From the IMG/VR virus record IMGVR_UViG_3300031974_004478, positions 1-36,457 of that record: DNA of 36,457 bases, one strand, 5' to 3'. The notes beneath the pieces are model-generated. The model worked only from the letters and a program-made list of their open reading frames with translations, did no database searches and had not been told where the DNA came from. Source of the DNA: a virus. Below are positions 6,541-29,509 of this stretch, in pieces; positions within the stretch are counted from its first letter, which is position 1, and each line of letters starts with the position of its first letter. Both the position numbers and the translations under genes were made by a program.

Positions 6541-6552
6541 TTGTTTTTCCTT

Positions 6553-7199: not shown

Positions 7200-7200
7200 C

Positions 7201-10086: not shown

Positions 10087-10088
10087 CT

Positions 10089-16032: not shown

Positions 16033-16689
16033 ATGAAAAAAATGGACATAAATTTTATCAAATCTACTCAACATTGTCAGCGAAACTGGGATACATCTCG
16101 GCAAATTCCTCAAGATCATATAGATCTATTAGAGGCAGCTGCTCGTTATTGTCCTAGTAAACAAAACTATGCCTTCTATAGTGTAAAATTTATTACCAAT
16201 AGAAAGCTTATAGAACAAATACATGATACTACAAATCCAGGAGGTAATGGAGGGTTTGGGGTTTTAACAGATCCAACTCAACCAACGAGTCCTGATAATA
16301 TGACATTCTATACAAATCCACAAACCCTTGCTAATCTACTCGTAGTTTTTGGATATAATATTCCTTATTCTAAACAAGCATCACTTAAAGATAAAGTAGG
16401 CCATTTTGATTATCCTTTTAAGAGAGATGCAGATATGGCTATGGGTATTGCTCTTGGTTACTTATTTTTTGTAGCAAATTCTCTTGGTTATAAAACTGGA
16501 GGAAATGCTTGTTTTGATATTGATGCTTTACGAACACTTTTAACAGAAGATTTAAGTTATGATCCTGCAGTAATGATAGGTATAGGATATGCAGACGACA
16601 ATAGAAATCCAAGAGAACATCATACAGATCCAACTTTTACCTTTCCAGCAAGATACAAAGAAGAAATTAAAATGGAGTACTATACATAA
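16033..16689 (+). CDS. nitroreductase-family flavoprotein
   Basis: 218 residues (or three fewer from the ATG at 16,042; neither has a clear ribosome binding site). The family's opening is clear: CQRNWDTSRQIPQDHIDLL, then AARYCPSKQNYAFY, a region that binds FMN in nitroreductases. The C-terminal YDPAVMIGIGYADDNRNPRE and PARYKEEI match the family's end. Such enzymes use FMN and NAD(P)H to reduce or oxidise varied substrates, including ring dehydrogenation in natural-product pathways. It heads a three-gene plus-strand operon with one-base overlaps, and faces the large minus-strand cluster, so a shared pathway is plausible but unproven. Confidence 0.8.
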   Translation: MKKMDINFIKSTQHCQRNWDTSRQIPQDHIDLLEAAARYCPSKQNYAFYSVKFITNRKLIEQIHDTTNPGGNGGFGVLTDPTQPTSPDNMTFYTNPQTLANLLVVFGYNIPYSKQASLKDKVGHFDYPFKRDADMAMGIALGYLFFVANSLGYKTGGNACFDIDALRTLLTEDLSYDPAVMIGIGYADDNRNPREHHTDPTFTFPARYKEEIKMEYYT

Positions 16690-17369
16690 TGATACATCCT
16701 AGAAATGAGAGTACTAATAGGTACCCACTATTTAATGAATTAATTCCGGAGTATACTTTTGATAATAACTTATTAGATTATGGAGGAAGTTCTGGTAATC
16801 TGATTTATTTTTCAAATGGTGCAATTAACGAATCTAAATATACATGCATTGATGTAGTTAAAGATGCTATCAACGCAGGGCAATCTGAATTTCCAAATGG
16901 CAACTTTATTCACTGGAACAGATATAATGAAACGTATAATACAAATGGCATAAAAAATGAGTCGCTTCCTTTTATACCAGATCATGATTATATCTGGGGT
17001 TATAGTGTTTTTAGCCATATGATATTAGAAGACATTATCGAAGTTATTTTATGGATGAAATCTTTAAACCCAAAAAAGATTATAATGTCATACTTAAATA
17101 ATGATCATGATGATTATTCTAATTGGACTATGAACTATTTTTACCAAAAAAGAATTGAGTCTTTCGGCGAGTGCGTAGATTTTAGAAAGAACGACGAAGA
17201 TTATTTTTATCTTACTGACAATAAATACGGTAACAAAAACGGAGAATTTTTTATTGCAGTTTATAAAACAGAATGGCTATTAGAACAATTTTCGAAATAT
17301 AAAATTGAAGCTAAAAAGATACACGCTATAGAAAATAATTGGCCAATACCATTTTTAGAGATTAAATAA
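16689..17369 (+). CDS. SAM-dependent methyltransferase
   Basis: 226 residues, class I Rossmann type: motif I LLDYGGSSGN (28-37), acidic residue at the end of the next strand in YTCIDVVKDAI (Asp55), a motif II/III-like DYIWGYSVFSHM, and MSYLNNDHDDY further on. The likely target is unknown: small molecule, sugar or protein. Overlaps the nitroreductase stop and the next start by one base each, so the three are translated together. Noticeably AT-rich, as the rest of the cluster. Confidence 0.75.
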   Translation: MIHPRNESTNRYPLFNELIPEYTFDNNLLDYGGSSGNLIYFSNGAINESKYTCIDVVKDAINAGQSEFPNGNFIHWNRYNETYNTNGIKNESLPFIPDHDYIWGYSVFSHMILEDIIEVILWMKSLNPKKIIMSYLNNDHDDYSNWTMNYFYQKRIESFGECVDFRKNDEDYFYLTDNKYGNKNGEFFIAVYKTEWLLEQFSKYKIEAKKIHAIENNWPIPFLEIK

Positions 17370-18118
17370 TGAATAAAATTGTATTAGTTACCGGAGGATT
17401 CGATCCTATACATTCTGGACATATTTCTTATTTAAGAGCAGCATCTCAATTAGGTAATAAATTAGTTGTAGGATTAAATACTGATGAATGGCTAGCTCGT
17501 AAAAAAGGTAGAGCTTTTTTACCATATGAAGAAAGGAAAATAATTGTTGAAGGATTAGAAATGGTCGACTGGACACTTCCTTTTAATGATGACGATGGTA
17601 GTGCTTGCGATGCAATTAATAGGATTCTCAAAGATACTATGGATACTGTTGTCTTTGCAAATGGAGGGGATCGCAATGGAGAGAATACTCCAGAATATAT
17701 CAAATATAAAAATCACCCTGATGTAGAGTTTGCGTTTAATGTAGGTGATAAAAAAATACAGTCTTCAAGTAAGATTTTAAATCGTTGGAGAAATAACAGA
17801 TTTGCAGAAAGAAATTGGGGTCAATGGAAAGTATACGACGAAGATAAGAATTGGAAAGTAAAGCAATTACTCATTTATCCTGGTCAAGCTTTATCAAATC
17901 AAAAACACACAAAAAGAAATGAGTTTTGGCATATACTTTCTGGTCAATGTGTGTTAAAATTAGAAGATAAAGATATTGTATTAAACACAAATGAATCATA
18001 CTTAATTCCACCCAATAAATGGCATCAGGGGACAAATATTAGTGATACGCTTTGTACTATATTAGAAATTCAGTATGGAGAAGAATGTACTGAAGATGAT
18101 ATTACACGAATCATTTAA
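17369..18118 (+). CDS. cytidylyltransferase-like domain fused to a cupin
   Basis: 249 residues in two domains. Residues 1-140: cytidylyltransferase of the RfaE-C/TagD type, with GGFDPIHSGH (9-18), YEERKIIVEG around Arg56 and a late IQSSSKI (130-136) in place of ISSTxxR. Residues about 150-249: a type-II-mannose-6-phosphate-isomerase-like cupin with possible metal ligands His180, Glu185, His188 and His219 and the family end ILEIQYGEECTEDDITRI. The first domain would charge a sugar or alditol phosphate with CMP, and the second could isomerise or epimerise a sugar. I know of no standard enzyme with this fusion. Stop codon overlaps the facing gene at 18,111. Confidence 0.8.
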   Translation: MNKIVLVTGGFDPIHSGHISYLRAASQLGNKLVVGLNTDEWLARKKGRAFLPYEERKIIVEGLEMVDWTLPFNDDDGSACDAINRILKDTMDTVVFANGGDRNGENTPEYIKYKNHPDVEFAFNVGDKKIQSSSKILNRWRNNRFAERNWGQWKVYDEDKNWKVKQLLIYPGQALSNQKHTKRNEFWHILSGQCVLKLEDKDIVLNTNESYLIPPNKWHQGTNISDTLCTILEIQYGEECTEDDITRII

Positions 18119-18341
18119 ATTTTCTATATTCAGGATTTGGATGATCTTTTAGTCGTTCATTATATAGCTTTGCTACTATTCGTGCTGCAGTACTTTCGAA
18201 AAATCTTGGTGCTAAAGCATGAATAAAACTTGCAACTGCCGCATAAAATAATAATCCAGAAGCATATATTGCAAATTTAAAATGGCCTAAAGTATTTGTT
18301 CCACTTTTTTTAATATGTGCTTGACATTTTTTACTTAACAT
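18111..18341 (-). CDS. DUF6356-like small membrane protein
   Basis: 76 residues: N-terminal basic part MLSKKCQAHIKKSGTNTLGH, a membrane segment (FKFAIYASGLLFYAAVASFI, about 22-41) with HALAPRFFEST after it. This H-F-x-F ... IHALAP-x-x-F pattern is the DUF6356 type, unknown function. Last gene of the minus-strand cluster; its stop overlaps the plus-strand operon's stop by eight bases. It overlaps the upstream oxygenase by 11 bases. Confidence 0.6.
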   Translation of the reverse strand: MLSKKCQAHIKKSGTNTLGHFKFAIYASGLLFYAAVASFIHALAPRFFESTAARIVAKLYNERLKDHPNPEYRKFK

Positions 18342-18840
18342 TTTTTTCCTCTACTATCATCTGTAAACTTAGTTTGGGTATAGTTGTAAGATTTGCTGCG
18401 CCATGATTGTCTTGAGATAAAATAAATGCATCTCCTCTTTCATAATCTTTTATAAGATTTCCTTGTTCAATAAAAACATGGCCTGGAATATAATCGCCTA
18501 ATGCTACCCATAAACGCAATTGATTTTCTTCTACTGGAAGATCTTTATGCATACCAAGTACACAGGCAGGCATAACTCTACTCAACCACCATCCAACGGT
18601 TTTATAACCCTCAATTGTGGGCCATTCTAATTCTTTAGATTGATTCCAACCAAAATATAGTTCCCACTGTAAACCTTTTTTGTTATTACTATCTATAGAG
18701 CCTTGCTTCCAATTTCTAAAATATTCTTGTAAATTTTTTTTACCATAATCATTCCATGGCCTCGATTCAAACTCTAATTTATTTAAATATTCATCAGTCC
18801 AATGAAGTGGAATAGAAACTTTATTTTTTAGTTTGTGCAT
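18331..18840 (-). CDS. putative Fe(II)/2OG-type oxygenase (copy 1)
   Basis: 169 residues. The C-terminal half has the cupin-like oxygenase pattern: VLGMHKDLPV with His98-x-Asp100, LRLWVALGDYIPGHVFIEQG, GDAFILSQDNHGAANL with His146, and KLSLQMIV where Lys156 stands in place of the usual Arg that binds 2-oxoglutarate. A Lys there is known in a few members (for example FIH), but this one needs testing. N-terminal part SIPLHWTDEYLNKLEFESRP may shape the substrate pocket. Expected reaction is hydroxylation or desaturation; substrate unknown. Located between a glycosyltransferase and a DUF6356 gene. Confidence 0.65.
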   Translation of the reverse strand: MHKLKNKVSIPLHWTDEYLNKLEFESRPWNDYGKKNLQEYFRNWKQGSIDSNNKKGLQWELYFGWNQSKELEWPTIEGYKTVGWWLSRVMPACVLGMHKDLPVEENQLRLWVALGDYIPGHVFIEQGNLIKDYERGDAFILSQDNHGAANLTTIPKLSLQMIVEEKNVK

Positions 18841-19823
18841 TTATCTACTATAGTTTTAAAATAACTCATATTTGGAATAGAGTAATCTATATCCCAAAAT
18901 TCTTTTGGTACGTTATCTTTATTTTTAATAAGATCTATAAAATGATATTTATTGTATTCTAATTTATTTTTTATTCTATGTAAAAGGTTATTATAGTTTT
19001 CACCTTTTAGATTGATGAGGTTTTCAGTAATACCCTTTACTCTTGTTTCAGTACTATCTTTATTATCAAATTCGTAATTAAATAATTCGTCATATAATTC
19101 AAAACCCAATTCTTTTAATTTCATATGAGAATTTTTTGTAGCAAGACCTAAGAAAGGCCTACAGTGTAAAAGTGCTTGTGCAAATTTATTTCCCATATAC
19201 ATTGTGTCATCAACTATAGCTTCTGGTAAAATATGCACAAATCCCCTTTCATAGTAATTTCCTTGTACAATAAACCCTTCATTACCATAAGGTAAATCAC
19301 TTGTGTAAATATCGTCTAAAGTTCTTTGTTGATTATCAAAATATTTAAATGGATATGGCTTATAAGGTAAATGATTGTCACTTACTTCCATATTGTGCCA
19401 GCTTAAATATCCATCATCTATCAAATTATTTTTTGCAAATTCATCAAGTAACATACCTCGCCAATATTTAGATTTTCTATTTAAGCAAGTATATAACTTA
19501 TCAATCGGAGGATTATATGTTTTTTCATACTTTGTAAAATTGTCGTACGCATATAGCCATGTCCACATTGACCAATTGATTACACATTCCGGATTGTTAT
19601 CATTAAAATTACCAAGCCATATTTCCAAATTACACATATTTTTTATTTTATCAAATGCTTGACTATCTTCAATAATACGATTATATTCACTTGGATGAAA
19701 CCACACTACCTTTTCATATTTAGCTCCATCACCAAAAAAATGGTTTATAAACTTATCCGAATATAAATCCCAATATTTAAATTCTTCTTGCGGCAAAAAC
19801 CAAGGCGTAATATATTTTATCAT
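18828..19823 (-). CDS. glycosyltransferase-like protein
   Basis: 331 residues. Middle part LYTCLNRKSKYWRGMLLDEF, then DDGYLSWHN, and the later FVHILPEAIVDDTMYMGNKF followed by HCRPFLGLATKNSHMKLKEL, GFELYDE is a pattern I associate with phage and bacterial glycosyltransferases, where the late E-x-K-x-P-like region contacts the nucleotide sugar. Here Glu-Lys is replaced by NKFAQALLHCRPF, so the family assignment is only general. It could attach the sugar made with the help of the pyrophosphorylase two genes upstream. Four-base overlap with the dioxygenase upstream. Confidence 0.6.
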   Translation of the reverse strand: MIKYITPWFLPQEEFKYWDLYSDKFINHFFGDGAKYEKVVWFHPSEYNRIIEDSQAFDKIKNMCNLEIWLGNFNDNNPECVINWSMWTWLYAYDNFTKYEKTYNPPIDKLYTCLNRKSKYWRGMLLDEFAKNNLIDDGYLSWHNMEVSDNHLPYKPYPFKYFDNQQRTLDDIYTSDLPYGNEGFIVQGNYYERGFVHILPEAIVDDTMYMGNKFAQALLHCRPFLGLATKNSHMKLKELGFELYDELFNYEFDNKDSTETRVKGITENLINLKGENYNNLLHRIKNKLEYNKYHFIDLIKNKDNVPKEFWDIDYSIPNMSYFKTIVDKCTN

Positions 19824-20542
19824 TCAACATCTCGTGTAATCATATCTTCACCAGTTTTCATTTTTTTATTATAGATATTATCTTCTTCGATTACTAACTT
19901 TTTTAATTGTTCAAAAATATCCTTTCTTGTATATGTAATGCTCAAAGCTCTTCGCAATGTATTTGACATATTAGGCATACTACTATGTAAACAACGGGTA
20001 TTAAACAAAATCAAATCTCCAATATTGCATTCGACTTGTTCATAATTATCTAAAAATAAATCCTGATATCTTCCTTCGATAGCATTCCAATGATCGATAA
20101 AATAATTTTGGCTATGTGGTAAAAATGCTGTTGCACCAGTCTGGCTATCAAACTTTTCTAAAGGTATAAAAACATGAATACCAAGAAGATCTTTAGTCTT
20201 ATTGAATTTATTAAATCTATTAGGAGTGTCGAGATGCGGATTAATAAGATCCCAACCAGGTTTTTGACACACAAAACATCCTTTACCATATGATTTGAAA
20301 TTCGTAGGAATATATTTTTCAACGCATCCTTTTATTTCTTCGCTTAATTGTAAAGATATCTCATCAGTAGTATATTGCAGATAATTGTCTTTTTGTGGCA
20401 TGCCTGTAATATAATTTTTTTCATAGTCAAAACCATGATGAGCATTAACAATTGTTTCTTCTCTTCGTAAATTTTTAATCAGTTTACTAGAAATTACATT
20501 TGGTATAATACAAAAACCTTTATTTAAAAATTCTTCTAACAT
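19820..20542 (-). CDS. PhyH-family (phytanoyl-CoA dioxygenase-like) oxygenase (copy 2)
   Basis: 240 residues with all PhyH marks: NKGFCIIPNVISSKLIKNLR at the start, INPHLDTPN with His103-x-Asp105, FIPLEKFDSQTGATAFLPHS, ECNIGDLILFNTRCLHSSMP with His186, and TLRRALSITY with Arg197/198 for 2-oxoglutarate. This family hydroxylates lipids, amino acids and antibiotics, and includes enzymes that act on carrier- or CoA-bound acids. It directly follows the adenylating enzyme (7 bases of overlap), so oxidation of the activated acid is a reasonable guess. Confidence 0.8.
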   Translation of the reverse strand: MLEEFLNKGFCIIPNVISSKLIKNLRREETIVNAHHGFDYEKNYITGMPQKDNYLQYTTDEISLQLSEEIKGCVEKYIPTNFKSYGKGCFVCQKPGWDLINPHLDTPNRFNKFNKTKDLLGIHVFIPLEKFDSQTGATAFLPHSQNYFIDHWNAIEGRYQDLFLDNYEQVECNIGDLILFNTRCLHSSMPNMSNTLRRALSITYTRKDIFEQLKKLVIEEDNIYNKKMKTGEDMITRDVE

Positions 20543-21921
20543 CTAAAATAATCTCTTATCATTTCTTTATCAATTTTTATGCCACGAAAAAAATTATATT
20601 TGTTTATACGTTTACTTTGGTCAATTTGCAATCTTGAATTTATTTGATTTATATGCTCCTTTAATTGATTTATTTTCATTTCGTTTGTATCGCTCCAAAG
20701 TGCCAGATAAAGTTTATTATAAATCGTATCTGTAATTATCTCACCATCAATATCAAACATAGCTGGAATATTACTTAATTCCTGTAGATTTAATTCTACT
20801 TGATTTATTTTTACAATATCATATCTACCTTTATGAATAAAAATATTATTTCGCTGTATTTCAAAAATATCATTCATCTCGATAATAGTATTATAAACTG
20901 GCATATGTACATTAAGTTTTTCTTTTTGTACATCGAACTTATAAAAATTATCTATTTGTACAAACTCTCGAGAATCAAAAGATTTATTTCTTTTCAATTG
21001 AGATAAAAATAATGGTCCACTTGTTTCATTACATCCGAATATGCTTTCAAATTTTTGAATACCTAAGTCGAAGAAATCATTCCATTCTGGATTGATATAG
21101 CTTAAAGTAAACATATTTAAATTATTGAAATTTCTTTTATTTTGTTTTGCAACTTTAAGGAATATATCTATGTCAACACTAAAAGGAAAACTTATATTTT
21201 CAATTTTATATTGTTCTGCTATTTTTGCAACTTGATTTAATTCATATTCTGTTTGTTTATCATAACCAAAACAAGTATGGAAACTTACATCATCACTTGC
21301 TAACACTGGTAAAAAGAAAACAGCTAAACTACTTCCGTGATGTAGATTTCTAATATGTAATACACTACCACTATATAGTTTTTTATTTCTCTGTACGAGT
21401 TCGTACATAAAATTATGTTTATGTTTTACTATCTTTGGTGTTCCAGTTGTACCACTCGAGGTACAAAAAAGCATATAATCTTCCGGATCTGGTCTTATAG
21501 CATTAATATTGTCATCAATGTTGATATCACAGTTTCTCAAACATTTTACATCATAAATATTTTTACTGCGCTTAGAATAATATTTGAGTTTATCAACGTT
21601 ACGTTCATCTAATTTATGTAGAAATATATCTATGTTACCATAGACATCGTTCTTAAAATCTTTTATGCCAAGTTCATCTGCTCTGCTCGAATAGTCTAAA
21701 ACCACAAATAACAAACCAAGCTCTAAGCTTGCAAATGTAATAGCGAAATAATCAAAATCTATTCGTGTAATACCAAGGGCAATAGTCTGACCCTTTCTAG
21801 CTTTACATTTATTGACTAATATATTTTTCCAATAATCAATTCGTACGAATAAATCATCGCGTCGTAAATCACCTTCTTTATAGAGGAAATTTTTGCTTAC
21901 AATGTTTCTATCGAGTATCAT
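20536..21921 (-). CDS. AMP-forming acid ligase (ANL superfamily)
   Basis: 461 residues with the core motifs: FCTSSGTTGTPKIVKHKHN (A3, 152-170), FGCNETSGP (A5, 295-303), DIFEI near Asp351 (A7), HKGRYDIVKINQVELNLQEL (A8; Gly365, Arg366, Asp368, Lys371) and a C-terminal Lys at about 449 in FFRGIKIDKEMI (A10). Such enzymes make acyl- or aminoacyl-AMP and pass it to CoA, a carrier protein or an amine. No carrier-protein gene is seen near by. Substrate not predictable. In a lytic phage cluster this enzyme is rare; it is very AT-rich (13 G/C of 60 in 20821-20880). Overlaps the pyrophosphorylase gene by four bases. Confidence 0.85.
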   Translation of the reverse strand: MILDRNIVSKNFLYKEGDLRRDDLFVRIDYWKNILVNKCKARKGQTIALGITRIDFDYFAITFASLELGLLFVVLDYSSRADELGIKDFKNDVYGNIDIFLHKLDERNVDKLKYYSKRSKNIYDVKCLRNCDINIDDNINAIRPDPEDYMLFCTSSGTTGTPKIVKHKHNFMYELVQRNKKLYSGSVLHIRNLHHGSSLAVFFLPVLASDDVSFHTCFGYDKQTEYELNQVAKIAEQYKIENISFPFSVDIDIFLKVAKQNKRNFNNLNMFTLSYINPEWNDFFDLGIQKFESIFGCNETSGPLFLSQLKRNKSFDSREFVQIDNFYKFDVQKEKLNVHMPVYNTIIEMNDIFEIQRNNIFIHKGRYDIVKINQVELNLQELSNIPAMFDIDGEIITDTIYNKLYLALWSDTNEMKINQLKEHINQINSRLQIDQSKRINKYNFFRGIKIDKEMIRDYFRC

Positions 21922-22562
21922 AGAAATATCTTATAATTATCACAGTATTCGTTGTAACCTGACCACGTACCTAAATCTACGTATTCTTTATTATAAGAAT
22001 AATTTATATCAATTGAATTTAGATATTCTCCCATTTCTTTTCCAACATAATCTTTAGGCATATCTTCTATTACGAGTTTAGCTGCACCCCAAAATTTATT
22101 CTGATTAGATGAAGTTTTTTTACTCTTAATGTCAAATTTATTTTGAGATATCCTATCTACTTTTAAATTATCATTAGAAGTTTCAAAAATACAGGCTACG
22201 TGACCTTCGATATTAAGTGCTTCTATAAAAGGATTTCCTATGTAGACTGTATCTGGTAAACCGTATAATAAAATTCCACTATGAATCCATCTACGAAAAT
22301 CATTTAATACAAATGGATTCATATTATTTTGACATATATGGGAATACCCTATAAAGTGTCTTAAAATATCGGGTTTATAATTTTTGCCATGAATAAAAAA
22401 GATATCATCACACTGAGCTTCTTTCATTTTATCAACCGTATGTTCAATAACTGGTTTATAAAAATCATAGCCGAGTAAAGGTAACATTTCTTTACTAAAT
22501 GGTAAATTTAATCGAGTTCCGTTTCCTCCTACAGGAATGCAACCATATATTTTATTTTTCAT
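21918..22562 (-). CDS. nucleotide-sugar pyrophosphorylase-like nucleotidyltransferase
   Basis: 214 residues. The family N-terminus is clear: IPVGGNGTRLNLPFSKEMLP (GGxGTRL at 12-18, Lys24), then PVIEHTVDKMKEAQCDDIFF. Later WGAAKLVIEDMP and EYVDLGTWSGYNEY fit the end of the sugar domain. It is shorter than RmlA (about 290), so the family's C-terminal part is missing or cut down. Expected to form NDP-sugars from NTP and sugar-1-phosphate, supplying the glycosyltransferases in this cluster. Sugar identity unknown. Overlaps both neighbours by four bases. Confidence 0.75.
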   Translation of the reverse strand: MKNKIYGCIPVGGNGTRLNLPFSKEMLPLLGYDFYKPVIEHTVDKMKEAQCDDIFFIHGKNYKPDILRHFIGYSHICQNNMNPFVLNDFRRWIHSGILLYGLPDTVYIGNPFIEALNIEGHVACIFETSNDNLKVDRISQNKFDIKSKKTSSNQNKFWGAAKLVIEDMPKDYVGKEMGEYLNSIDINYSYNKEYVDLGTWSGYNEYCDNYKIFL

Positions 22563-23266
22563 ATTAATTTTATTTGCGAACAGTTATCGTTTTCTAAAAT
22601 ATATTTAATAGCTAAACACACATCATAATCATTTGCTTTATTATAATATATTTTTTTATCTCCAACTGATATTCCACCTTCAATATAGTTAATTTCTAAT
22701 CCGTCTCCACTTGGATTAAAATAATCATCAATACATTTATTATTAGTATTATTTTTAATCGGATAAACTTGAATCCAAGGTAAAGCTAACGTTCCTTCAT
22801 CATTGAGTTGTTTCATTTCATTATAGCTTTTATCAAAATGAAACAACAAATTAAATCTGCCTTCATCAGTATGATTGATTCCATTATGAATAGTTTTAGC
22901 ATTTGTAATTACTGGTCCATCATAATAATAATCAATTTCTATATCATTTTTTTTAAATCTAATTAAATGTTCTTTATCATCTATTGGAAGTATAAGCGTG
23001 CAGCCTCTAGTGTAATCGCTATGATATCCAGTTTCAGCACCTGGTGGAACGTAACTAAAACTATAAGTTGAGCTTTCTTTTAAAAATGCTTTTATTCTCC
23101 AGGCTTCTAAATTGATCGGAAACAAAATATCTTTAAACTCAGAAAAATATTTACCACCCTTTATACTATAACTAGGCCATGTTTCAATAGATGACACATA
23201 GTCGTTTAACAATTTTTTATTGTATTTAATCTTTACTGGACTAATGTAATCGTCAGTATTAATCAT
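22559..23266 (-). CDS. putative Fe(II)/2OG-type oxygenase (copy 3)
   Basis: 235 residues. Residues 68-145 show SFSYVPPGAETGYHSDYTRG with His82-x-Asp84, LILPIDDKEHLIRF, ITNAKTIHNGI with His127 and DEGRFNLLFHFD with Arg137, the full set of iron and 2-oxoglutarate ligands in the right order. A long C-terminal extension (about 150-235) has no family I know. Substrate unknown. Starts with an eight-base overlap with the SDR gene, so made together with it. Confidence 0.7.
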   Translation of the reverse strand: MINTDDYISPVKIKYNKKLLNDYVSSIETWPSYSIKGGKYFSEFKDILFPINLEAWRIKAFLKESSTYSFSYVPPGAETGYHSDYTRGCTLILPIDDKEHLIRFKKNDIEIDYYYDGPVITNAKTIHNGINHTDEGRFNLLFHFDKSYNEMKQLNDEGTLALPWIQVYPIKNNTNNKCIDDYFNPSGDGLEINYIEGGISVGDKKIYYNKANDYDVCLAIKYILENDNCSQIKLI

Positions 23267-23831
23267 ATCTATTTGCCGTTATAGTAATTTCTTCAATGCA
23301 CATTTTTGATTCTGTAATGTATTTAATACATTCTGCTACTTCTTCTACTGTTAATTTCTTTTCTTCTGGGTGTAATCTATCAACATAAGGAGTATGCATA
23401 TGACCAACACTAATATATGTGCATAAAATTCCTGGACTTACATTTGTTCTATTGTGATTAATAGTTTGACAAATATTTTCTAATGCTACCTTTTCGGCTC
23501 TATAACTTACGTATTTAATCCACGGCTGTTCAGTATTAATGTGATCAGTAATACTTCCAATTCCAATTAAATGACCAGTTTTTCCAGCCTCAAGCCAAGA
23601 AACATATATTTTATGCATCATTCTTGCTTGCACATATGCTAAATTACCAACTAAGGTGTGAGCATTTAATATAACGCCGTCATACTGATGAGTAAGTTCT
23701 ACAAATTTATTTTGAATTTCCTCATCATTTATATCCCATCCATTACTTCTACTATAAAAATCACTATCTAGAACTTTTGCTATTCCAGACGCTAATCCAG
23801 TTTCTGGATTACCTGTTGTTATAAACTGCAT
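23259..23831 (-). CDS. short-chain dehydrogenase/reductase-like protein
   Basis: 190 residues, shorter than the usual 250. N-terminal ITTGNPETGLASGIAKVL resembles the TGxxxGxG cofactor loop (TG at 6-7, Gly12, Gly16), NAHT (56-59) stands for the NAG motif, LIGIGSITDHI gives the catalytic Ser (93), and YVSYRAEKVALENI the Tyr110-xxx-Lys114 pair; SPGIL (132-136) fits the PG motif. So the catalytic set is present though the cofactor loop is divergent. Expected NAD(P)-dependent oxidoreduction of a sugar or acyl group. Overlaps the neighbour by 23 bases. Confidence 0.7.
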   Translation of the reverse strand: MQFITTGNPETGLASGIAKVLDSDFYSRSNGWDINDEEIQNKFVELTHQYDGVILNAHTLVGNLAYVQARMMHKIYVSWLEAGKTGHLIGIGSITDHINTEQPWIKYVSYRAEKVALENICQTINHNRTNVSPGILCTYISVGHMHTPYVDRLHPEEKKLTVEEVAECIKYITESKMCIEEITITANRYD

Positions 23832-24450
23832 TTACTGCTTCCTTATTCGCTGTTATCATTTCACGGTATTTGCGAAACTCTTCATTTTCTTGGGGTGTTG
23901 TATCTACTACATCGTCAGCATCAATAAAAAGTATATTTACTCTTGGAGCGGCAGTGCCATTTGTAGTGCTATGCAACACATGAGTATTAATCCAATATGC
24001 TTTGCCTGGTTTCAGGCTAAAAACAATTTCATCTTTTGGAAAAACAAAATAATCCAATGGTGGTATTGTGAAAACTGGTATTTGATATCTATCTTTAAAA
24101 TTGTCACAGTGCGTAGGATAACAGTCACCTTCAGCTAATAACATAATTCGAACAGCTGCTGGATTAGGATGAATTTTATTTACACATTCTTTTATATATG
24201 GAATTTCTAATTCTGGATTCCAATGCCATTTTGTGCCTTTGCGATTATCTTCTTCAACTATATCGCCGTTTGGATTATACCCAATACGGCCATGAGAAAT
24301 CCAATCTTCGGGGTTTTTTGTATTATATTGTAACCACCACCATTTCTGCCGGCCTCCTAAACTTGGATTGTCACGTATTACTTTAAGAACTTCTTGTTTA
24401 AGCAAATCTACATCAAAATTAAAATTATATTCTTTATAGAGATGATCCAT
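23809..24450 (-). CDS. putative aspartyl-hydroxylase-like 2OG oxygenase (copy 4)
   Basis: 213 residues. MLLAEGDCYPTHCDNFKDRY has His114-x-Asp116, YFVFPKDEIVFSLKPGKAYW and INTHVLHSTTNG give the second His (157 or 160), and APRVNILFID has Arg170. The layout is that of small phage 2OG oxygenases of the AspH/prolyl-hydroxylase superfamily. N-terminal Trp-rich region (KWWWLQYNTKNPEDW) may bind the substrate. AGAGGA lies before the ATG. Substrate unknown. Confidence 0.7.
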   Translation of the reverse strand: MDHLYKEYNFNFDVDLLKQEVLKVIRDNPSLGGRQKWWWLQYNTKNPEDWISHGRIGYNPNGDIVEEDNRKGTKWHWNPELEIPYIKECVNKIHPNPAAVRIMLLAEGDCYPTHCDNFKDRYQIPVFTIPPLDYFVFPKDEIVFSLKPGKAYWINTHVLHSTTNGTAAPRVNILFIDADDVVDTTPQENEEFRKYREMITANKEAVNAVYNNR

Positions 24451-25120
24451 TGAATTCCTCTGGTTTCATAAATGGTTTTAAATATTTATTCTCTTTTCCA
24501 TGGGCGTAATCTAAAGCTGGATGCCTGTGTGGCATTACAGGATAATAATCAACTCGGCTGCTATGTGCCACGTGTGTCCATCCTCCTTCTCTTCCAATAC
24601 AATATTTACTTGTTGAAATTAATTTACAATTTTCTTCAATACTCATATGGCTGCCTAATTCAATAGGATTATCAATATATTGAATTATTTCTTCGCTTAC
24701 GTTTCTTGGTAAAGTATATGCATGTCCGTTATAAATTTCTTCTGGTCCAGTGGTATAATAGCACACATGATCTTGAGGATTTCTTTTAAATCGCGTAGGA
24801 TAATATTCATGTCTTAAAATACATGGAATAGTTTGAATCTCGTCTTCTGTATAATTTGGTGCTCTAAGATCTTTAAGATTCTCTTTCCAAGATTTCTGAG
24901 GATCTATTTCTAAATGTATTGTTGGTTTTTTATGAACAATAAGCGGATACTGTGGTTCTTGAAAACATGTCAGTATTTCACACCATTTACTATAGTTCCT
25001 ATCATTTAAACATAAATCTATATTTAATTCTTCTTTTTGATTTACTAATAGCCAACTTATATTTTGCCATAATCCACCGAGACCCATATAATCAAAATTA
25101 AAAAACATTACCCTTTGCAT
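24434..25120 (-). CDS. glycosyltransferase-like protein (GT9-like end)
   Basis: About 228 residues; start uncertain between the ATG at 25,120 and one at 25,108 that overlaps the upstream stop (TAATG). Begins MQRVMFFNFDYMGLGGLWQN. Near the end LISTSKYCIGREGGWTHVAH followed by SSRVDYYPVMPHRHP resembles the C-terminal nucleotide-sugar part of heptosyltransferase-like (GT9) proteins, which have a D/E-GGxxHxA motif. Total length is below GT9 enzymes (about 350). A partner for the NDP-sugar and cytidylyltransferase genes is plausible. Confidence 0.55.
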   Translation of the reverse strand: MQRVMFFNFDYMGLGGLWQNISWLLVNQKEELNIDLCLNDRNYSKWCEILTCFQEPQYPLIVHKKPTIHLEIDPQKSWKENLKDLRAPNYTEDEIQTIPCILRHEYYPTRFKRNPQDHVCYYTTGPEEIYNGHAYTLPRNVSEEIIQYIDNPIELGSHMSIEENCKLISTSKYCIGREGGWTHVAHSSRVDYYPVMPHRHPALDYAHGKENKYLKPFMKPEEFNGSSL

Positions 25121-25563
25121 TTTTGAGCATACCAACTTAAAGGAAGATTTAGAAATTTATAATCTTGACCAGTTACTTTACCTCTACAACTCGACGCTCC
25201 ACAATTACAATTTGGAATAGGATCTTTTTTAGTCAACATGAATGTTCCATAATCTACTGTTAAATATTCATCAGCTTCGATATCTCTTAGAGCTCTAAAT
25301 ACTACTTGTCCATCTATATAAACATTGGGTTCACAACTATGATTAATATAAGCTTGATATTCTGCACCTTCAGGCAAATCAATTACTAAATCTTTGTCAA
25401 TCAGTAATCCTTTATACCACTTATGATTCGATAAATGTCGTGCTAATCCACCCACAACAAATATTATTTCATCTTTTTTTATTTTAGCCGTAGCTTTTCG
25501 ACAAAGGCCATGAACATTATGCTCTTTAACGACCGTATCTTTATTGATATGAAAAAAATTCAT
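25108..25563 (-). CDS. SET-domain methyltransferase with post-SET cysteines
   Basis: About 151 residues from the ATG reading MNFFHINKDTVVKEHNVHGL. The SET core is plain: YINHSCEPNVYIDG (the NHSCxPN motif), VFRALRDIEADEYLTVDYGT with the catalytic Tyr, and a post-SET zinc site CNCGASSC. GLCRKATAKIKKDE is the usual N-terminal SET-N strand. SET enzymes methylate lysines with SAM; in a bacterial virus the likely target is a host or virion protein, not histones. The whole compact domain is present with no extra domain. Overlaps neighbours by 23 and 13 bases. Confidence 0.85.
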   Translation of the reverse strand: MNFFHINKDTVVKEHNVHGLCRKATAKIKKDEIIFVVGGLARHLSNHKWYKGLLIDKDLVIDLPEGAEYQAYINHSCEPNVYIDGQVVFRALRDIEADEYLTVDYGTFMLTKKDPIPNCNCGASSCRGKVTGQDYKFLNLPLSWYAQKCKG

Positions 25564-26299
25564 TAAACTTTGGATCCTCAAAATTTGCCATAACTAATGC
25601 GTGATATCTTGTTTTACCTTTTTTATTATTTACTGCATGATTGTGCTGTGTATTAATTATCCATGCCTCATTAAATTTATAATATTCAATGTGATGTTTA
25701 TAATCCATATACACAATCATTGAGGTATCTTCGTTTGTGACTAGTGGTATATGCAAATAAGCATGCGTATATATTGGTTCATAGTAACAATGACTATGCC
25801 AATTTATTCTTTCGCTATCATCTACTTTACTAATTAATACTCTGTCGCACATTTCCCATGTTACAAACTTTTCGATTACAGATCTGATATATGGTAATTT
25901 TAAAGTGGTATCAACCATATGTTCTGGTGGTACTCGACCATCTTTAATTAAATGAGATTTTCCTAATATCTCCATAAAATCCCAAGTTTCACCAAATCCA
26001 AAATCTGGATCTTCACACCAGTTTCTTAGAAATTTAGACGTCCAATAACTACTTGTTCCTTGGCCTCGTGTACCCTTTACGTCGTTATTATATCCGTTCC
26101 ATTGACCATCAATAGAATTTAATTCTGTTAATATTTTATCTTGATCTAAATTTAATTTATCGGCTAATTTATAGTGAGGAACATGCAATAGTTGTTTTGC
26201 TATAGGATGAATAGCTCTATCGCTTGCACACCGAGGGTTGCAAGTCGAATCAAATGCAGGAGCATTTTCTACATCTTCAAGTCTCCAATGTAGATCCAT
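25541..26299 (-). CDS. putative aspartyl-hydroxylase-like oxygenase with HxH motif (copy 5)
   Basis: 252 residues. NWHSHCYYEP has His168-Ser-His170 where the family usually has HxD, then HAYLHIPLVTNEDTSMIVYM, AWIINTQHNHAVNN (His219/221) and KTRYHALV (Arg231). AspH-type enzymes do not need the acidic ligand, so HSH could still bind iron. The first 130 residues (CNPRCASDRAIHPIAKQLLH, WTSKFLRNWC) are family-unknown. GAGG lies before the ATG. May have an unusual iron site or be inactive. Confidence 0.65.
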   Translation of the reverse strand: MDLHWRLEDVENAPAFDSTCNPRCASDRAIHPIAKQLLHVPHYKLADKLNLDQDKILTELNSIDGQWNGYNNDVKGTRGQGTSSYWTSKFLRNWCEDPDFGFGETWDFMEILGKSHLIKDGRVPPEHMVDTTLKLPYIRSVIEKFVTWEMCDRVLISKVDDSERINWHSHCYYEPIYTHAYLHIPLVTNEDTSMIVYMDYKHHIEYYKFNEAWIINTQHNHAVNNKKGKTRYHALVMANFEDPKFNEFFSYQ

Positions 26300-26606
26300 A
26301 TGATTTTACCTCTTTTATATCGCTTTGCCATAAATCATCAATAATACGTTTAATATGAGATCTTAAATCATTTAAAGGAGCTATTAAATAATCTCCATCA
26401 TGAAAATTATTTCTTTTTTTCTCTTCTAAATTCCATAGTTGCTCATTGATAGATTTAAGTATATTAAAAAAATATTGTATATCCTTGTATTCTTCTAAAT
26501 TATATTGCAAAATTTCTTTATGAACATTTAATCCATGATCCATTTTAATTTGAAGTATAGTTGCTCTATCAACATATTCTCCAATACCAATTTCAACTTT
26601 AGGCAT
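26277..26606 (-). CDS. DUF6165-like protein
   Basis: 109 residues with the opening VEIGIGEYVDRATILQIKMD, typical of DUF6165 (VSVGELxDKxTILxIK). The rest is helical (EYKDIQYFFNILKSINEQLW, DLRSHIKRIIDDLW). In bacteria such proteins often occur near glycosyltransferase or surface-sugar genes, as I recall; function unknown. Here it lies between two oxygenase genes, with overlaps on both sides. Its presence supports a surface-sugar theme but does not prove it. Confidence 0.65.
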   Translation of the reverse strand: MPKVEIGIGEYVDRATILQIKMDHGLNVHKEILQYNLEEYKDIQYFFNILKSINEQLWNLEEKKRNNFHDGDYLIAPLNDLRSHIKRIIDDLWQSDIKEVKSYGSTLET

Positions 26607-27078
26607 CTACACAACCTACTAAATGAATACGTGTTTCCCAACTTGCATTTACTGCAGTATGTCTTTGAACAGTATCAACCCAATAAACTGATCCATCTCC
26701 TTTTAATCGATGCAGATTATCTTCTAATATAAAAAAACAATTGTCATTTGTAGCTAAAGGAATATGAATCCTAGGAGTAAAATCTCGATGATAAGAATAA
26801 CATGTTTTAGAATCTTGCACCATTATACGAGTTCTAAACATATTAAATTTTTCCATAATAGAATTAGTATATGGTATATTAAATAAAGGAATACGAAAAG
26901 CTTTTTCTTGATCTCTCGGATGTATATTTTGATCGTGTGTAAATTCAGCAACTGCGCCTGTGCCGTAATACGGATCTTGATCTTTTGATATTCCTTGTAA
27001 ACAAAGAGTTCCTTCAGGCAATGTTTTCAACTCTTCTTGTATTGTTTCTATGTTTACTTTATCTAAAAATTTTATCAT
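26599..27078 (-). CDS. putative 2OG-type oxygenase (copy 6)
   Basis: 159 residues. TCYSYHRDFTPRIHIPLATN gives His97-x-Asp99, CFFILEDNLHRLKGDGSVYW the middle strands, VDTVQRHTAVNAS His140 and ETRIHLVG Arg150: complete ligand set in a minimal beta-sandwich. AAGGA stands before the ATG. Related in layout to copy 5 (PLVTNED versus PLATNDN after the first ligand), so the two may be old duplicates. Substrate unknown. Confidence 0.7.
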   Translation of the reverse strand: MIKFLDKVNIETIQEELKTLPEGTLCLQGISKDQDPYYGTGAVAEFTHDQNIHPRDQEKAFRIPLFNIPYTNSIMEKFNMFRTRIMVQDSKTCYSYHRDFTPRIHIPLATNDNCFFILEDNLHRLKGDGSVYWVDTVQRHTAVNASWETRIHLVGCVDA

Positions 27079-27547
27079 TGTTAATCCTTAATACATATTG
27101 CATTCCACCATAATGTAATTGTTCATAAGTAATATTCCAATTGTATTTACTCATTTTTTGAAACGCTTTAAATAAATTAGGACTTTCTTCTCTCGACACC
27201 CATATATTTTTATAGCCCATATCTAAACATTTTTCGGCCGATAAATCTAATGTTGTTGTTCCGCGTTTTAAATCAGCTTTCCATCCACCAAAATCATAAT
27301 TTCTATCTCTCGTATGTCGTGACATAATTCTTATTGAACCATTGTATTCTGGTATTTCAACTGCAGCGCTATAATATACCATATTATCATAATTATCCCA
27401 ACCCATTCTTGCAAACTTAGTATATTCAAATAAAGGATTTTTTAAATAATTATCTTCGTGTTTGTGGCCACGATTTTTTTCAAATAACTCATTTATATAT
27501 GGAATATATTTTTCTATCTTATCCAGTTTCCAAATCATCTGTTCCAT
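27059..27547 (-). CDS. conserved phage protein, possibly acetyltransferase-like
   Basis: 162 residues (or from a second ATG at 27,538). The middle SAAVEIPEYNGSIRIMSRHT, RDRNYDFGGWKADLKRG and KNIWVSREESPNLFKAFQKM are a pattern I know from marine phages. The strand-turn-helix order with a C-terminal MQYVLRI looks like a GNAT acetyltransferase without its clear acetyl-CoA loop, so the label stays open. Overlaps the next gene by 20 bases and the upstream one by 29. Confidence 0.45.
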   Translation of the reverse strand: MEQMIWKLDKIEKYIPYINELFEKNRGHKHEDNYLKNPLFEYTKFARMGWDNYDNMVYYSAAVEIPEYNGSIRIMSRHTRDRNYDFGGWKADLKRGTTTLDLSAEKCLDMGYKNIWVSREESPNLFKAFQKMSKYNWNITYEQLHYGGMQYVLRINNDKIFR

Positions 27548-28130
27548 CTAAGCTAAACATTAATGCAATTCGTGGTTTATTAGACATATTCATTACAGCA
27601 TGTGGATATCCGATATTAAGAAAATACGCTTGACCGTTTTCTAAATTATAAGCTTCTAATTCACCATCGCGTCGAAATACATTGACCACATTTCTATCGC
27701 CATAAATTGGACAAATGCAACGAACAGCATATGATACATCATAATCAACATGAAATGGAATCGCTTTACCGGGTGCTAGCTTAGTAATTCGTATACGACT
27801 TGCTGGTGCTTTTAATTGAGTTACAATTTCTTCAAAATAACTGTTAGTATAATCTTCTGTTGGAATATTATAAAGATGTTCTTCTTTACGACGCAATCTT
27901 TCTTTAATGCTTGCCGTGTGTGGTAAAATTTCACTTGGAGTTGTTAAATTGATTTGTTCGAAGTTATCATACACCTGACCTACTAGTTCCATATGATTAT
28001 CACACAGCATAGGATTAGCTGTACGAACATCAGTAAATTTTGTTGCCAATTTATCTGTAGCTTTTTGTAATTTATCTAAATCAATATTTAGATTAAAATT
28101 TTTAACTGTCGGTAAATTTTGTTTTCTCAT
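27519..28130 (-). CDS. putative 2OG-type oxygenase (copy 7)
   Basis: 203 residues. KLAPGKAIPFHVDYDVSYAV with His127-x-Asp129, CICPIYGDRNVVNVFRRDGE, NLENGQAYFLNIGYPHAVMN with His177 and KPRIALMFSLDG with Arg187. All iron and cosubstrate ligands are in place. N-terminal half is helical and polar. It follows the aminotransferase-like gene with a four-base overlap. Such phage enzymes are common in marine T4-like genomes; substrate unknown. Confidence 0.75.
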   Translation of the reverse strand: MRKQNLPTVKNFNLNIDLDKLQKATDKLATKFTDVRTANPMLCDNHMELVGQVYDNFEQINLTTPSEILPHTASIKERLRRKEEHLYNIPTEDYTNSYFEEIVTQLKAPASRIRITKLAPGKAIPFHVDYDVSYAVRCICPIYGDRNVVNVFRRDGELEAYNLENGQAYFLNIGYPHAVMNMSNKPRIALMFSLDGTDDLETG

Positions 28131-28894
28131 AGTTTATAAATTCCTGCTAGACAAATTCGCGCTTGTTTTCCTCTTTTAAACTTTTCATATTCATCATCTT
28201 CTGTTGTTGCTAACCAAACTGAATCACTTGGTTTAAAATCCATTTGTTTACAAATTTCTTTTTGCTGATCTTTTAATTTGTTCCAAATAAAATCAATATC
28301 AAAATTACTTATAATAGTTTCTGCTATATCATGTGCATAATAATTATAATATTTTGCTGAGTGTATTAAACTATCTAATTTTTTATCAGGCCTTTTGGTA
28401 AAATACCAACCAGTTCTTACGTTACGAATACCAAATGGTTTCGATAAACTAAAGAAAATATGTTCAACATTTGAACCAATTTCTATTTTTTTTATCTTTG
28501 TACTTCCAACATATGCTAAATCTAAAGCTAAAGAACCTGAATGTATTTTTGTAAAGTTTCCATCAATAGCACTAGGCCAACTTTGATATTTAATACACTC
28601 TTCGTACGGATTACCTTTTGGACTAATCCATTGATAGTCGCCTTCATCCATATAGACAGATCTAGTTTCTTGGTGATACCACCAATCCAATCCTTGAGTA
28701 ATTCCATTCATAGGATAAACATTGTAGTTAGTTAAATCAATGATTGGTAATAACCATTCTTTAATATTAGTTTTATAAAGTTCTACGCTATCATAATCTG
28801 GATCAACAGTGTCAATAATTTGTTTAACTTCAGTTAATACTGGTGTTCTTATAGCTTTACTAAGATTTAATATGCTATCTTTTATGGTGGTCAT
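28127..28894 (-). CDS. short PLP aminotransferase-like protein
   Basis: 255 residues from the ATG with AAGGAAAC before it. It has the class I aminotransferase order: VYPMNGITQGLDWWYHQETR (large-domain entry, 60-79), LALDLAYVGSTK (Asp125, which would hold the PLP ring N), FFSLSKPFGIRNVRTGW with Lys152 as the PLP lysine and Arg160, and a final ARICLAG (Arg246) like the carboxylate-binding Arg. Normal enzymes have about 390 residues; most of the small domain is missing. Could transaminate a keto sugar or acid for the cluster, or be a non-catalytic relative. Confidence 0.65.
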   Translation of the reverse strand: MTTIKDSILNLSKAIRTPVLTEVKQIIDTVDPDYDSVELYKTNIKEWLLPIIDLTNYNVYPMNGITQGLDWWYHQETRSVYMDEGDYQWISPKGNPYEECIKYQSWPSAIDGNFTKIHSGSLALDLAYVGSTKIKKIEIGSNVEHIFFSLSKPFGIRNVRTGWYFTKRPDKKLDSLIHSAKYYNYYAHDIAETIISNFDIDFIWNKLKDQQKEICKQMDFKPSDSVWLATTEDDEYEKFKRGKQARICLAGIYKL

Positions 28895-29420
28895 AATGGT
28901 TTCCTTCAAACGGAGCAAATAAATTAATCCACCATTTATTTACTGGTCCTTTTTTTGAATGTCCTAATAAATTTAGCATTCCATAAAACACATACGAATA
29001 TATATATACTAACAAAAAATGGTAAAAAAAGCCATAATATAATGCAATCATCCAAGTTACTGCCATTGTCATTAAACCATACTTATGAAAAAACATTATT
29101 CTTGGATTTTGATATAAATCTTTTACAAATTTTCGCGGGATATTTTTTATTCTCCAAGTTGAGAACAATATTTGATGCCATTTTTTATATAATGGACTAT
29201 GAGGATCTTTAGGAGTATCTGAATATGCATGATGCATTCTATGAATTCCAGACCAACTTAATGCGGACTGACCTCCACATAATACACCGCAATAAAGCAT
29301 AATACATTGTCCTATAGGAGATACTTTTATTTCACCATGTGAGAAACAACGATGATAGCCAAACGTAATACCTATAGAAGCTAAGATATAATATAAGATA
29401 TAAGATTCAATGAATACCAT
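28875..29420 (-). CDS. membrane fatty-acid desaturase-like protein, cut close after the third His box
   Basis: 181 residues from an ATG with GGAG upstream (an upstream TTG in frame is unlikely). SCD/acyl-desaturase marks: HRCFSH (H-x4-H), HRMHHAYSD (HxxHH), GHS (the extra His), HYDHHKR (HxxHH) at the very end. Four membrane segments are visible. Known members go on for 40-60 residues after the last box; here the stop comes two codons later, and the box is read over the start of the next gene. Introduces double bonds in acyl chains. Adding desaturation to a phage pathway could change host or product lipids. Confidence 0.8.
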   Translation of the reverse strand: MVFIESYILYYILASIGITFGYHRCFSHGEIKVSPIGQCIMLYCGVLCGGQSALSWSGIHRMHHAYSDTPKDPHSPLYKKWHQILFSTWRIKNIPRKFVKDLYQNPRIMFFHKYGLMTMAVTWMIALYYGFFYHFLLVYIYSYVFYGMLNLLGHSKKGPVNKWWINLFAPFEGNHYDHHKR

Positions 29421-29433
29421 AATACAATTCTCC

Positions 29434-29466
29434 AAAATAAAAATAGAGGGCTAACCGTGGCCCTCT
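29434..29466 (-). terminator. Rho-independent terminator
   Basis: Minus strand: AGAGGGC - CACGGTTA - GCCCTCT (7-bp stem, 29445-29466) followed by ATTTTTATTTT. It ends transcription from the barrel-protein gene. It sits only 14 bases before the desaturase start, so the big cluster either needs its own promoter inside this zone or relies on read-through; no clear promoter is visible. Confidence 0.75.
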
Positions 29467-29509
29467 GCGTGCTTATTACGTAGCAACCCGATTCATAATA
29501 TTATATATA

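Follow-up and report, generated by a model that had tools for sequence, protein, structure and literature searches.

The window analysed here comprises 36,457 nucleotides, positions 1–36,457 of the IMG/VR virus record IMGVR_UViG_3300031974_004478. The block at positions 16033–29435 was confirmed to hold, as proposed in a preliminary description, 21 open reading frames in two overlapping, convergent operons (Table 1), three on the plus strand (16033–18118) and eighteen on the minus strand (29435–18111), meeting in an 8-base overlap at 18111–18118. Neighbouring genes overlap by 1–44 bases, the larger overlaps being due to TTG start calls; gene 20 likely starts at an ATG slightly downstream of the listed TTG, and the likelier start of gene 21 is the ATG at about 29420. 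Two other IMG/VR contigs, one of which ends within gene 9, share the identical gene order with 92–100% protein identity, and the block is therefore not an assembly artefact. The GC content of this island is 29.9% against 37.1% and 37.2% in its flanks, where phrog_1221, ribonucleotide reductase, endolysin, thyX and gp41 are found. A terminator-like hairpin between gene 21 and the upstream gene (29510–29857) lies at the right edge of the island, and a scan for sigma-70 promoters gave no excess over shuffled sequences. The gp41-type helicase matched the PHROG DnaB-like helicase (1e-133) and its counterparts in C48C1 and cyanophages (62–69%), with the nearest records in Kyanoviridae. The virus is T4-like (Kyanoviridae-like) and infects bacteria, probably in a marine habitat. 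Megablast of 14.0–31.5 kb against named phages returned no match, and the anti-phage defence models of PADLOC had none among the 10 of 21 proteins scanned.

Table 1. Genes of the island and the hairpin at its right edge, with the principal evidence for each assignment.
Feature	Coordinates	Strand	Evidence
Gene 1, nitroreductase-family protein	16033..16689	+	Pfam 3.2e-6
Gene 2, SAM methyltransferase-like	16689..17369	+	Pfam 7e-4, below cut-off
Gene 3, RfaE/TagD-type nucleotidyltransferase fused to mannose-6-P-isomerase-type cupin	17369..18118	+	Pfam 5.9e-12 and 4.2e-22
Gene 4, DUF6356 small protein with hydrophobic stretch	18111..18341	-	Pfam 3.4e-12
Gene 5, 2OG-like protein	18331..18840	-	HKD..H motif only; no family match
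Gene 6, putative glycosyltransferase (preliminary description)	18828..19823	-	No family match
Gene 7, PhyH-family 2OG oxygenase	19820..20542	-	Pfam 7e-11
Gene 8, ANL-superfamily adenylating enzyme	20536..21921	-	Pfam AMP-binding 1.1e-9
Gene 9, short NDP-sugar nucleotidyltransferase-like	21918..22562	-	NCBIfam galU 2.4e-6, N-terminal 63 residues only; Pfam below cut-off
Gene 10, Asp_Arg_Hydrox 2OG oxygenase, second block	22559..23266	-	Pfam 0.0032, below cut-off; HSD..H
Gene 11, short SDR-like protein, second block	23259..23831	-	NCBIfam 0.0021
Gene 12, Asp_Arg_Hydrox 2OG oxygenase, second block	23809..24450	-	Pfam 8.8e-4, below cut-off; HCD..H
Gene 13, conserved protein, putative glycosyltransferase (preliminary description)	24434..25135	-	No family match
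Gene 14, SET-domain methyltransferase, second block	25108..25581	-	Pfam 8.4e-12
Gene 15, Asp_Arg_Hydrox homologue, HSH..H replacing HxD..H, second block	25541..26299	-	Pfam 3.5e-6
Gene 16, DUF6165-like	26277..26606	-	Pfam 1.4e-4, below cut-off
Gene 17, Asp_Arg_Hydrox 2OG oxygenase	26599..27078	-	Pfam 9.3e-9; HxD..H
Gene 18, GNAT-fold acyltransferase (class a of three alternatives), core	27059..27547	-	Predicted fold
Gene 19, Asp_Arg_Hydrox-family 2OG/Fe(II) oxygenase, most conserved core gene	27519..28130	-	Pfam 1.8e-6, above cut-off
Gene 20, compact PLP fold-type I aminotransferase-like enzyme, core	28127..28918	-	Fold and Schiff-base lysine
Gene 21, acyl-CoA-type (SCD-like) membrane di-iron desaturase, core	28875..29435	-	Pfam FA_desaturase 2.5e-9
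GC-rich hairpin, then T run	29444..29467		Terminator-like on minus strand; consensus match only

Genes 18–21 form the core of the island. Gene 19 has 117 relatives in IMG/VR, and its H127, D129, H177 and R187 are invariant, leaving the HxD..H metal triad intact. At synonymous sites that are saturated, pN/pS pointed to purifying selection on gene 19 (0.21), gp41 (0.26) and the SET gene (0.19), and the constraint on gene 19 equals that on the replicative helicase. The desaturase assignment of gene 21 stands above the Pfam cut-off; its family profile aligned over the whole catalytic domain with the solved acyl-CoA desaturases 4zyo/4ymk (1e-14 to 1e-15), and the three His boxes are invariant across 26 homologues. 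Gene 20 is predicted to be a PLP fold-type I aminotransferase-like enzyme, as first suggested, from its AlphaFold model (pLDDT 92), which Foldseek related to Trp and histidinol-P aminotransferases, and from the invariant lysine K154 (SxSKxFG), accompanied by invariant D127, R162 and R248; transamination is itself a prediction. The possible GNAT enzyme encoded by gene 18 is upheld by its predicted fold (pLDDT 90.6; Foldseek to the GNAT family, E about 5e-6, TM about 0.5–0.6), there being no Pfam or PDB sequence match to gene 18 and no acyltransferase family in Pfam matched by it or by 17 homologues. PDB profile searches with genes 18 and 19 gave chance-level matches only.

A second block, consisting of genes 10, 11, 12, 14 and 15, is also found in more distant phages. 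The SET methyltransferase (gene 14), securely above the Pfam cut-off, is present in 9 IMG/VR contigs, and its NHSC.PN and DY motifs and post-SET cysteines are invariant in 7 homologues. The short-chain dehydrogenase (SDR) claimed for gene 11 is weak, its sole support being the NCBIfam match, and a homologue (6e-32) occurs in a Bacteriovoracales aminotransferase/radical-SAM region. As for the seven Fe/2OG-type oxygenases originally listed (genes 5, 7, 10, 12, 15, 17 and 19), HxD..H was found in six, the exception being gene 15, in which the histidines H168, H170 and H221 of the variant motif are invariant in 6 homologues. Genes 7 (PhyH), 15, 17 and 19 (Asp_Arg_Hydrox) stand above the Pfam cut-off and genes 10 and 12 below it, while gene 5 was assigned by motif. 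Two small genes were left unmentioned in the preliminary description and carry domains of the DUF6356 (gene 4) and DUF6165 (gene 16, below cut-off) families.

Genes 1–9 are mostly private to this lineage, and genes 5–9 are found together only in its closest kin. This variable part holds the ANL enzyme, the pyrophosphorylase, the cytidylyltransferase and one of the two putative glycosyltransferases. The ANL ligase, nitroreductase and cytidylyltransferase-cupin were all substantiated above the Pfam cut-off, and the ANL enzyme further by an NCBIfam amino-acid adenylation domain (1.9e-7) and the motif SSGTTGTPK; the phage collection contained no relative of this enzyme, and a PDB sequence search found no match. 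The NDP-sugar pyrophosphorylase and the SAM methyltransferase persist as weak assignments. The two glycosyltransferases (genes 6 and 13) gained no backing from Pfam, PHROGs or NCBIfam, nor anything credible from PDB profile searches, at a remoteness too great for exclusion; gene 13 is 62–82% identical in 3 other phages.

The distribution of the core was followed through about 80 IMG/VR loci, which were picked via gene 19 and have shared ancestry, so that the following counts are not independent. Desaturase and aminotransferase both lay no more than about 10 kb from gene 19 in 25/25 loci with at least 9 kb on either side, and exactly one of three acyltransferase-like families was present in all 26 such well-flanked loci, although the identity of class b as a GNAT is doubtful (hhalign E 0.005, probability 7%). 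On the gene-19 tree, the order or strand of the core changed at least 14 times and the acyltransferase class at least 8 times. Class a, the type of gene 18, was never found with a TauD oxygenase (0/28 loci), while TauD occurred in 43 of the 52 loci lacking class a. Even a close relative had a swapped aminotransferase, with 43% identity as against 77–88% for most genes of the block. Four loci (L013, L040, L052 and L081) carry differing cargo between the core and phrog_1221, and the annotation of C48C1 has no core genes between gp41 and the homologue of 10089–11312; gene content is hypervariable at a fixed backbone site. Sister islands encode a KedN5-like B12 radical SAM protein (E 1e-44, below the family cut-off), TauD and a Rieske oxygenase. 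In Mosig, an isolate on Pelagibacter HTCC1062, the core sits next to the tail fibres, between VrlC and the neck protein. The Pelagibacter phage HTVC008M had no match to the core, which is therefore dispensable.

It is very likely that genes 18–21 are functionally linked, and they probably act together in making one molecule. The core genes were not scattered singly in related phages, and catalytic residues did not vary freely among their homologues; the idea of a pathway therefore survives. The notion of a self-contained pathway of 21 genes narrows to the four-gene core and a second recurring block, since genes 1–9 are mostly private and the order is reshuffled.

The core was also found in chromosomal context in two Bacteriovoracales genomes (JAFMBV010000002 and contig C34 of G092). 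In these unannotated regions, homologues of the desaturase, gene 20, gene 19 and TauD lie within 15–20 kb, and more 2OG enzymes and a B12-type radical SAM gene are close by. The bacterial TauD homologue is weakly similar to PtlD and ScoE, one of the genomes has a GNAT-SET fusion, and the Bacteriovoracales gene-20 relatives adjoin twitch-type radical SAM and asparagine-synthase-like genes. Two further candidates from the genome scan with gene 20 were rejected, L096 because it looks like a piece of phage within a Paceibacter MAG and L098 because its aminotransferase is distant and the core is missing.

Our main reading, to which we give a probability of roughly 40%, is that of a mobile, low-GC accessory biosynthesis island in which exchangeable modules surround a fixed core and which produces an aminolipid-like compound, an acylated and hydroxylated amine, destined for the host envelope. 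We infer its chemistry from enzyme families, and likewise the product class, order of steps and envelope target. The PLP enzyme would supply or remodel an amino compound, to which the GNAT enzyme would join an acyl group; the desaturase would make an acyl chain unsaturated and gene 19 would add the hydroxyl group, the outcome being an acylated, hydroxylated amine similar to the aminolipids of bacteria. The second block (SET gene 14; 2OG genes 10, 12 and 15; SDR gene 11) and the private set (ANL, pyrophosphorylase, cytidylyltransferase-cupin, PhyH and nitroreductase) may modify this product further or couple it to a glycan or head group. Delivered to the host envelope during infection, it could change the membrane itself or the way in which other phages recognise the host. 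A decorated lipid or amide, as envisaged in the preliminary description, is a plausible product. An acyl-amide or lipid is our tentative choice, the lipid reading being supported by the match of the desaturase profile to acyl-CoA desaturases; against it counts that gene 19 has no obvious membrane segment, which a lipid hydroxylase might need. A role in the envelope or in superinfection is rather doubtful. As a guarded suggestion, genes 18–21 and their counterparts may represent an unrecognised pathway of marine T4-like phages and Bacteriovoracales for a new class of acylated hydroxylated amino compounds (lipid or natural product), made during infection and varied between lineages by swappable tailoring modules.

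Known lipids offer an analogy: ornithine lipids, made by the OlsB/OlsA pathway with the hydroxylases OlsC/D/E, would resemble the proposed product in that an amino acid is N-acylated and hydroxylation follows (PMC3972451), but OlsA/OlsB were not detected in the island, which has a PLP enzyme and an acyl-CoA-type desaturase in addition. Amide-linked aminolipids are produced by SAR11 and roseobacters, and phage adsorption to Ruegeria pomeroyi lacking them was about 4-fold lower (PMC9938194). Ectoine biosynthesis, which likewise combines PLP, GNAT, cupin and 2OG enzymes, was considered and discarded, as there was no EctB/EctC match and the desaturase is constant.

The same enzymes might instead yield a small soluble compound akin to a natural product, not a lipid but an amine or amino-acid derivative, which would serve in signalling, bind metals or inhibit the host or competitors; tailoring would then fall to the 2OG, radical SAM and PLP enzymes. 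The B12 radical SAM, TauD, Rieske and radical-SAM relatives in sister islands resemble natural-product tailoring as much as lipid chemistry, and the ANL enzyme of the window and the Bacteriovoracales neighbours of gene 20 point the same way; a constant acyl-CoA-type desaturase and a cluster in which no carrier protein, NRPS or exporter was seen make this unlikely. Modification of a protein or peptide (virion, tail fibre or host protein) by hydroxylation of Asp/Asn-type residues, methylation of Lys by SET and acetylation by GNAT would suit the Asp_Arg_Hydrox and SET families, which have protein substrates elsewhere, the gp41-like conservation of gene 19, as if its target were constant, the tail-fibre neighbourhood in Mosig and the bacterial GNAT-SET fusion. 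It is distinctly unlikely, for the desaturase, ANL enzyme and nucleotidyltransferases are left unexplained, the island of the window lies near gp41, thyX and ribonucleotide reductase rather than tail genes, and no precursor peptide was recognised.

A hypermodified DNA base or modified RNA is barely credible. Phage base hypermodification employs PLP, GNAT and radical SAM enzymes, but Asp_Arg_Hydrox is not known as a family of nucleic-acid oxygenases, a membrane desaturase fits poorly, and no base-hydroxymethylating or nucleotide-activating gene was recognised; with its marker genes absent, DNA hypermodification was rejected. There may also be no pathway, only unrelated accessory genes in an insertion hot spot, with 2OG oxygenases lowering 2-oxoglutarate or making succinate; a role at the level of 2OG has been proposed for cyanophages (PMC3037559). 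The many 2OG enzymes of marine T4-like phages and the variability of genes 1–9 agree with this quite improbable reading, which is weakened by linkage in 25/25 loci through at least 14 rearrangements, by mutually exclusive acyltransferase-like classes and by bacterial clusters of the same genes, all unexpected of a grab-bag.

The vague observation of many 2OG oxygenases in marine phages gives way to a testable and well-delimited unit: four intact enzymes whose linkage has survived repeated rearrangement. Should the favoured pathway end in an envelope lipid or metabolite, each phage lineage would be changing in its own way the chemistry of the cell surface in bacteria that are very abundant in the ocean, with bearing on superinfection, host range and the cycling of phosphorus-free lipids.

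The available text of PMC7029224 describes a comparable hypervariable island in T4-like marine phages, the pelagimyophage host recognition cluster (HRC), with sugar, glycosyltransferase and radical SAM genes, located with tail-fibre genes between VrlC and gp14, for which a role in changing the host surface and preventing coinfection has been proposed. The core in Mosig occupies this HRC site. The island of the window is alike in its hypervariable content at a fixed backbone site but lies between the phrog_1221 gene and the endolysin/thyX/gp41 side, with no VrlC or tail fibre recognised beside it. That text names a stearoyl-CoA desaturase (freshwater phages) and an Asp/Asn hydroxylase (core) separately and does not describe the linked core. 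Phage-encoded fatty acid desaturases are shared with the cyanophages of Roitman et al. 2018, as cited in the available text of PMC11480375. Large envelope-type biosynthesis blocks are likewise known from the T4-like cyanophages P-SSM2, S-SM2 and S-SSM7, whose lipopolysaccharide gene clusters co-occur in part in several phages (PMC3037559), whereas the island core has oxygenase, desaturase and aminotransferase chemistry. Of the genes compared with those of named phages, it was gene 3 that clearly had relatives in cyanophages of this kind.

The window, a linear IMG/VR fragment of 36,457 bases, is part of a T4-like phage whose DnaB-like helicase is 62–69% identical to those of phage C48C1 and of cyanophages. 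All 21 open reading frames of the island, numbered here by position, are present as the preliminary description had them and all overlap, with a GC content of 29.9% against 37.1–37.2% outside it. The same gene set was found in two more contigs at 92–100% protein identity, one of which ends inside gene 9. Envelope-type gene islands are already known from marine T4-like phages (PMC3037559, PMC7029224), and to that extent the general kind of the island is not new. In the openly accessible papers that were found, neither the linkage of the core genes, nor the three acyltransferase-like families that alternate in the core, nor its counterparts in bacteria are described. Close by, the phage also encodes a Na+/Pi-cotransporter-like protein with a possible part in phosphate economy.

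The core comprises gene 21 (desaturase), gene 20 (aminotransferase), gene 19 (2OG oxygenase) and an acyltransferase-like gene. With gene 19 as query against IMG/VR, 117 relatives were confirmed and 80, at 75–100% identity, were kept. Homologues of genes 20 and 21 were located within about 10 kb of gene 19 in all 25 loci flanked by 9 kb or more on each side; as the genomes of the two cultured Pelagibacter myophages measure 141 and 147 kb, this linkage is far beyond chance, even though these loci share ancestry. The genes vary in order and strand, D-A-H, D-H-A and a reversed A-H-D being some of the arrangements, and a quick gene-19 tree, many of whose branches are weak, implies at least 14 such changes. 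A linked core in related phages, whose absence would have weakened the pathway idea, was found, without a fixed order. The core is also present in Pelagibacter phage Mosig (Mosig_72, 72%; Mosig_79, 44%; Mosig_80, 35%), beside genes for TauD, a methylase, an acetyltransferase, FMN reductase and peroxiredoxin and the tail fibres, while a search of Pelagibacter phage HTVC008M for the core gave no match. Core and SET block occur together in a 518-kb IMG/VR contig (L046/L135), far above the size of known relatives, which may be a chimera, a jumbo phage or host sequence.

Each of the 26 loci flanked by 8.5 kb or more on either side holds one, and only one, of three acyltransferase-like families (class a, that of gene 18, in 12; b and c in 7 each). 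A homologue of the TauD gene Mosig_75 was found in 0/28 loci with class a versus 43/52 without it. Gene 18 has a GNAT fold in a structure model, in agreement with the possible GNAT named before; class c matches Acetyltransf_1 weakly and class b is a GNAT only doubtfully. This constant set of PLP enzyme, acyltransferase-like protein, acyl-CoA-type desaturase and 2OG hydroxylase would suit the making of an acylated, unsaturated, hydroxylated amine, and an aminolipid-like product would act on the host envelope. Amide-linked aminolipids, the loss of which lowers phage adsorption, are made by SAR11 and roseobacters (PMC9938194), and in ornithine lipids N-acylation precedes hydroxylation (PMC3972451). 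On these grounds, together with the enzyme set, an aminolipid-like product is the leading reading, only by analogy, with a natural-product pathway and protein modification as less likely rivals.

Among the other assignments, the nitroreductase, nucleotidyltransferase-cupin fusion, PhyH, AMP-binding enzyme, SET protein, 2OG oxygenases and desaturase were supported, and for the aminotransferase-like gene 20 a structure model (pLDDT 92) shows a compact PLP enzyme of fold type I. Support was weak for the calls on genes 2, 9 and 11, and the calling of genes 6 and 13 as glycosyltransferases went unsupported. HxD..H is present in six of the seven 2OG-type proteins, the exception being gene 15 with HSH..H, a motif that may mark an iron site of three histidines or a change in chemistry.

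Coordinates of features in the window and in comparison loci
Feature	Sequence	Positions	Remarks
Na+/Pi-cotransporter-like protein	window	13636-14109	157 aa; Pfam 4.6e-15
Gene 15, Asp_Arg_Hydrox homologue	window	25541-26299	HxH..H, not HxD..H, in 6/6 aligned homologues
Hairpin with T run	window	29444-29467	between island and upstream gene
Rieske-type ring-hydroxylating oxygenase	L081 (another phage)	1513-2577	immediately upstream of core
B12-type radical SAM protein	L013 (sister island)	6312-7790	related to KedN5 C-methyltransferase family (E 1e-44, below cut-off)
B12-type radical SAM protein	L040 (sister island)	7959-8975	
GNAT-SET fusion	L118 (Bacteriovoracales)	9992-10996	beside gene-19 and gene-20 homologues; separate genes in phages

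A second block is formed by the SET gene 14 with genes 15 and 11, often 10 and 12, found together in 9/9 SET-bearing contigs and opposite in strand to the core in several of them. Genes 5–9 were jointly seen only in near-identical kin, with a partial set in locus L003. The stretch separating the core from the same phrog_1221 gene is filled with different cargo in L013, L040, L052 and L081, namely radical SAM, further 2OG enzymes and genes without assignment, and in C48C1, the nearest named phage, no core gene is annotated at the corresponding site. Between locus L026 and the window most block genes and thyX are 75–88% identical and gene 20 merely 43%, which argues for module swapping.

Synonymous sites are near saturation between the window and its relatives. 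Gene 19 (median identity 79%) has a pN/pS of 0.21, similar to the replicative helicase gp41 at 0.26, and SET one of 0.19. Constraint is looser in genes 20 and 21 (0.62), in spite of which their catalytic residues, whose free variation would have spoken against a pathway, are retained.

Strong gene-19 matches were found in only 2/369 genomes of the bacterial phylum concerned. A Bacteriovoracaceae MAG contig harbours desaturase-desaturase-aminotransferase, gene 19, TauD, methyltransferase and FMN reductase, with more 2OG genes, a B12-type radical SAM gene, aroC/aroB/aroA and efflux genes (the aro, efflux and some neighbour genes being named from sequence reading, without family search). In the second genome gene 19 adjoins gene 20, and TauD, radical SAM and a pair of desaturases accompany them together with the GNAT-SET fusion. 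MAG contamination is a residual possibility as the source of the bacterial core; both contigs exceed 100 kb and the first carries housekeeping genes. A contig of a Paceibacter MAG (L096) appears to be a piece of a core-bearing phage and is probably misbinned. Compact gene-20-type aminotransferases also lie near radical SAM genes in three Bacteriovoracales loci (L119, L120 and L121), where one radical SAM protein matches NF033640, twitch type.
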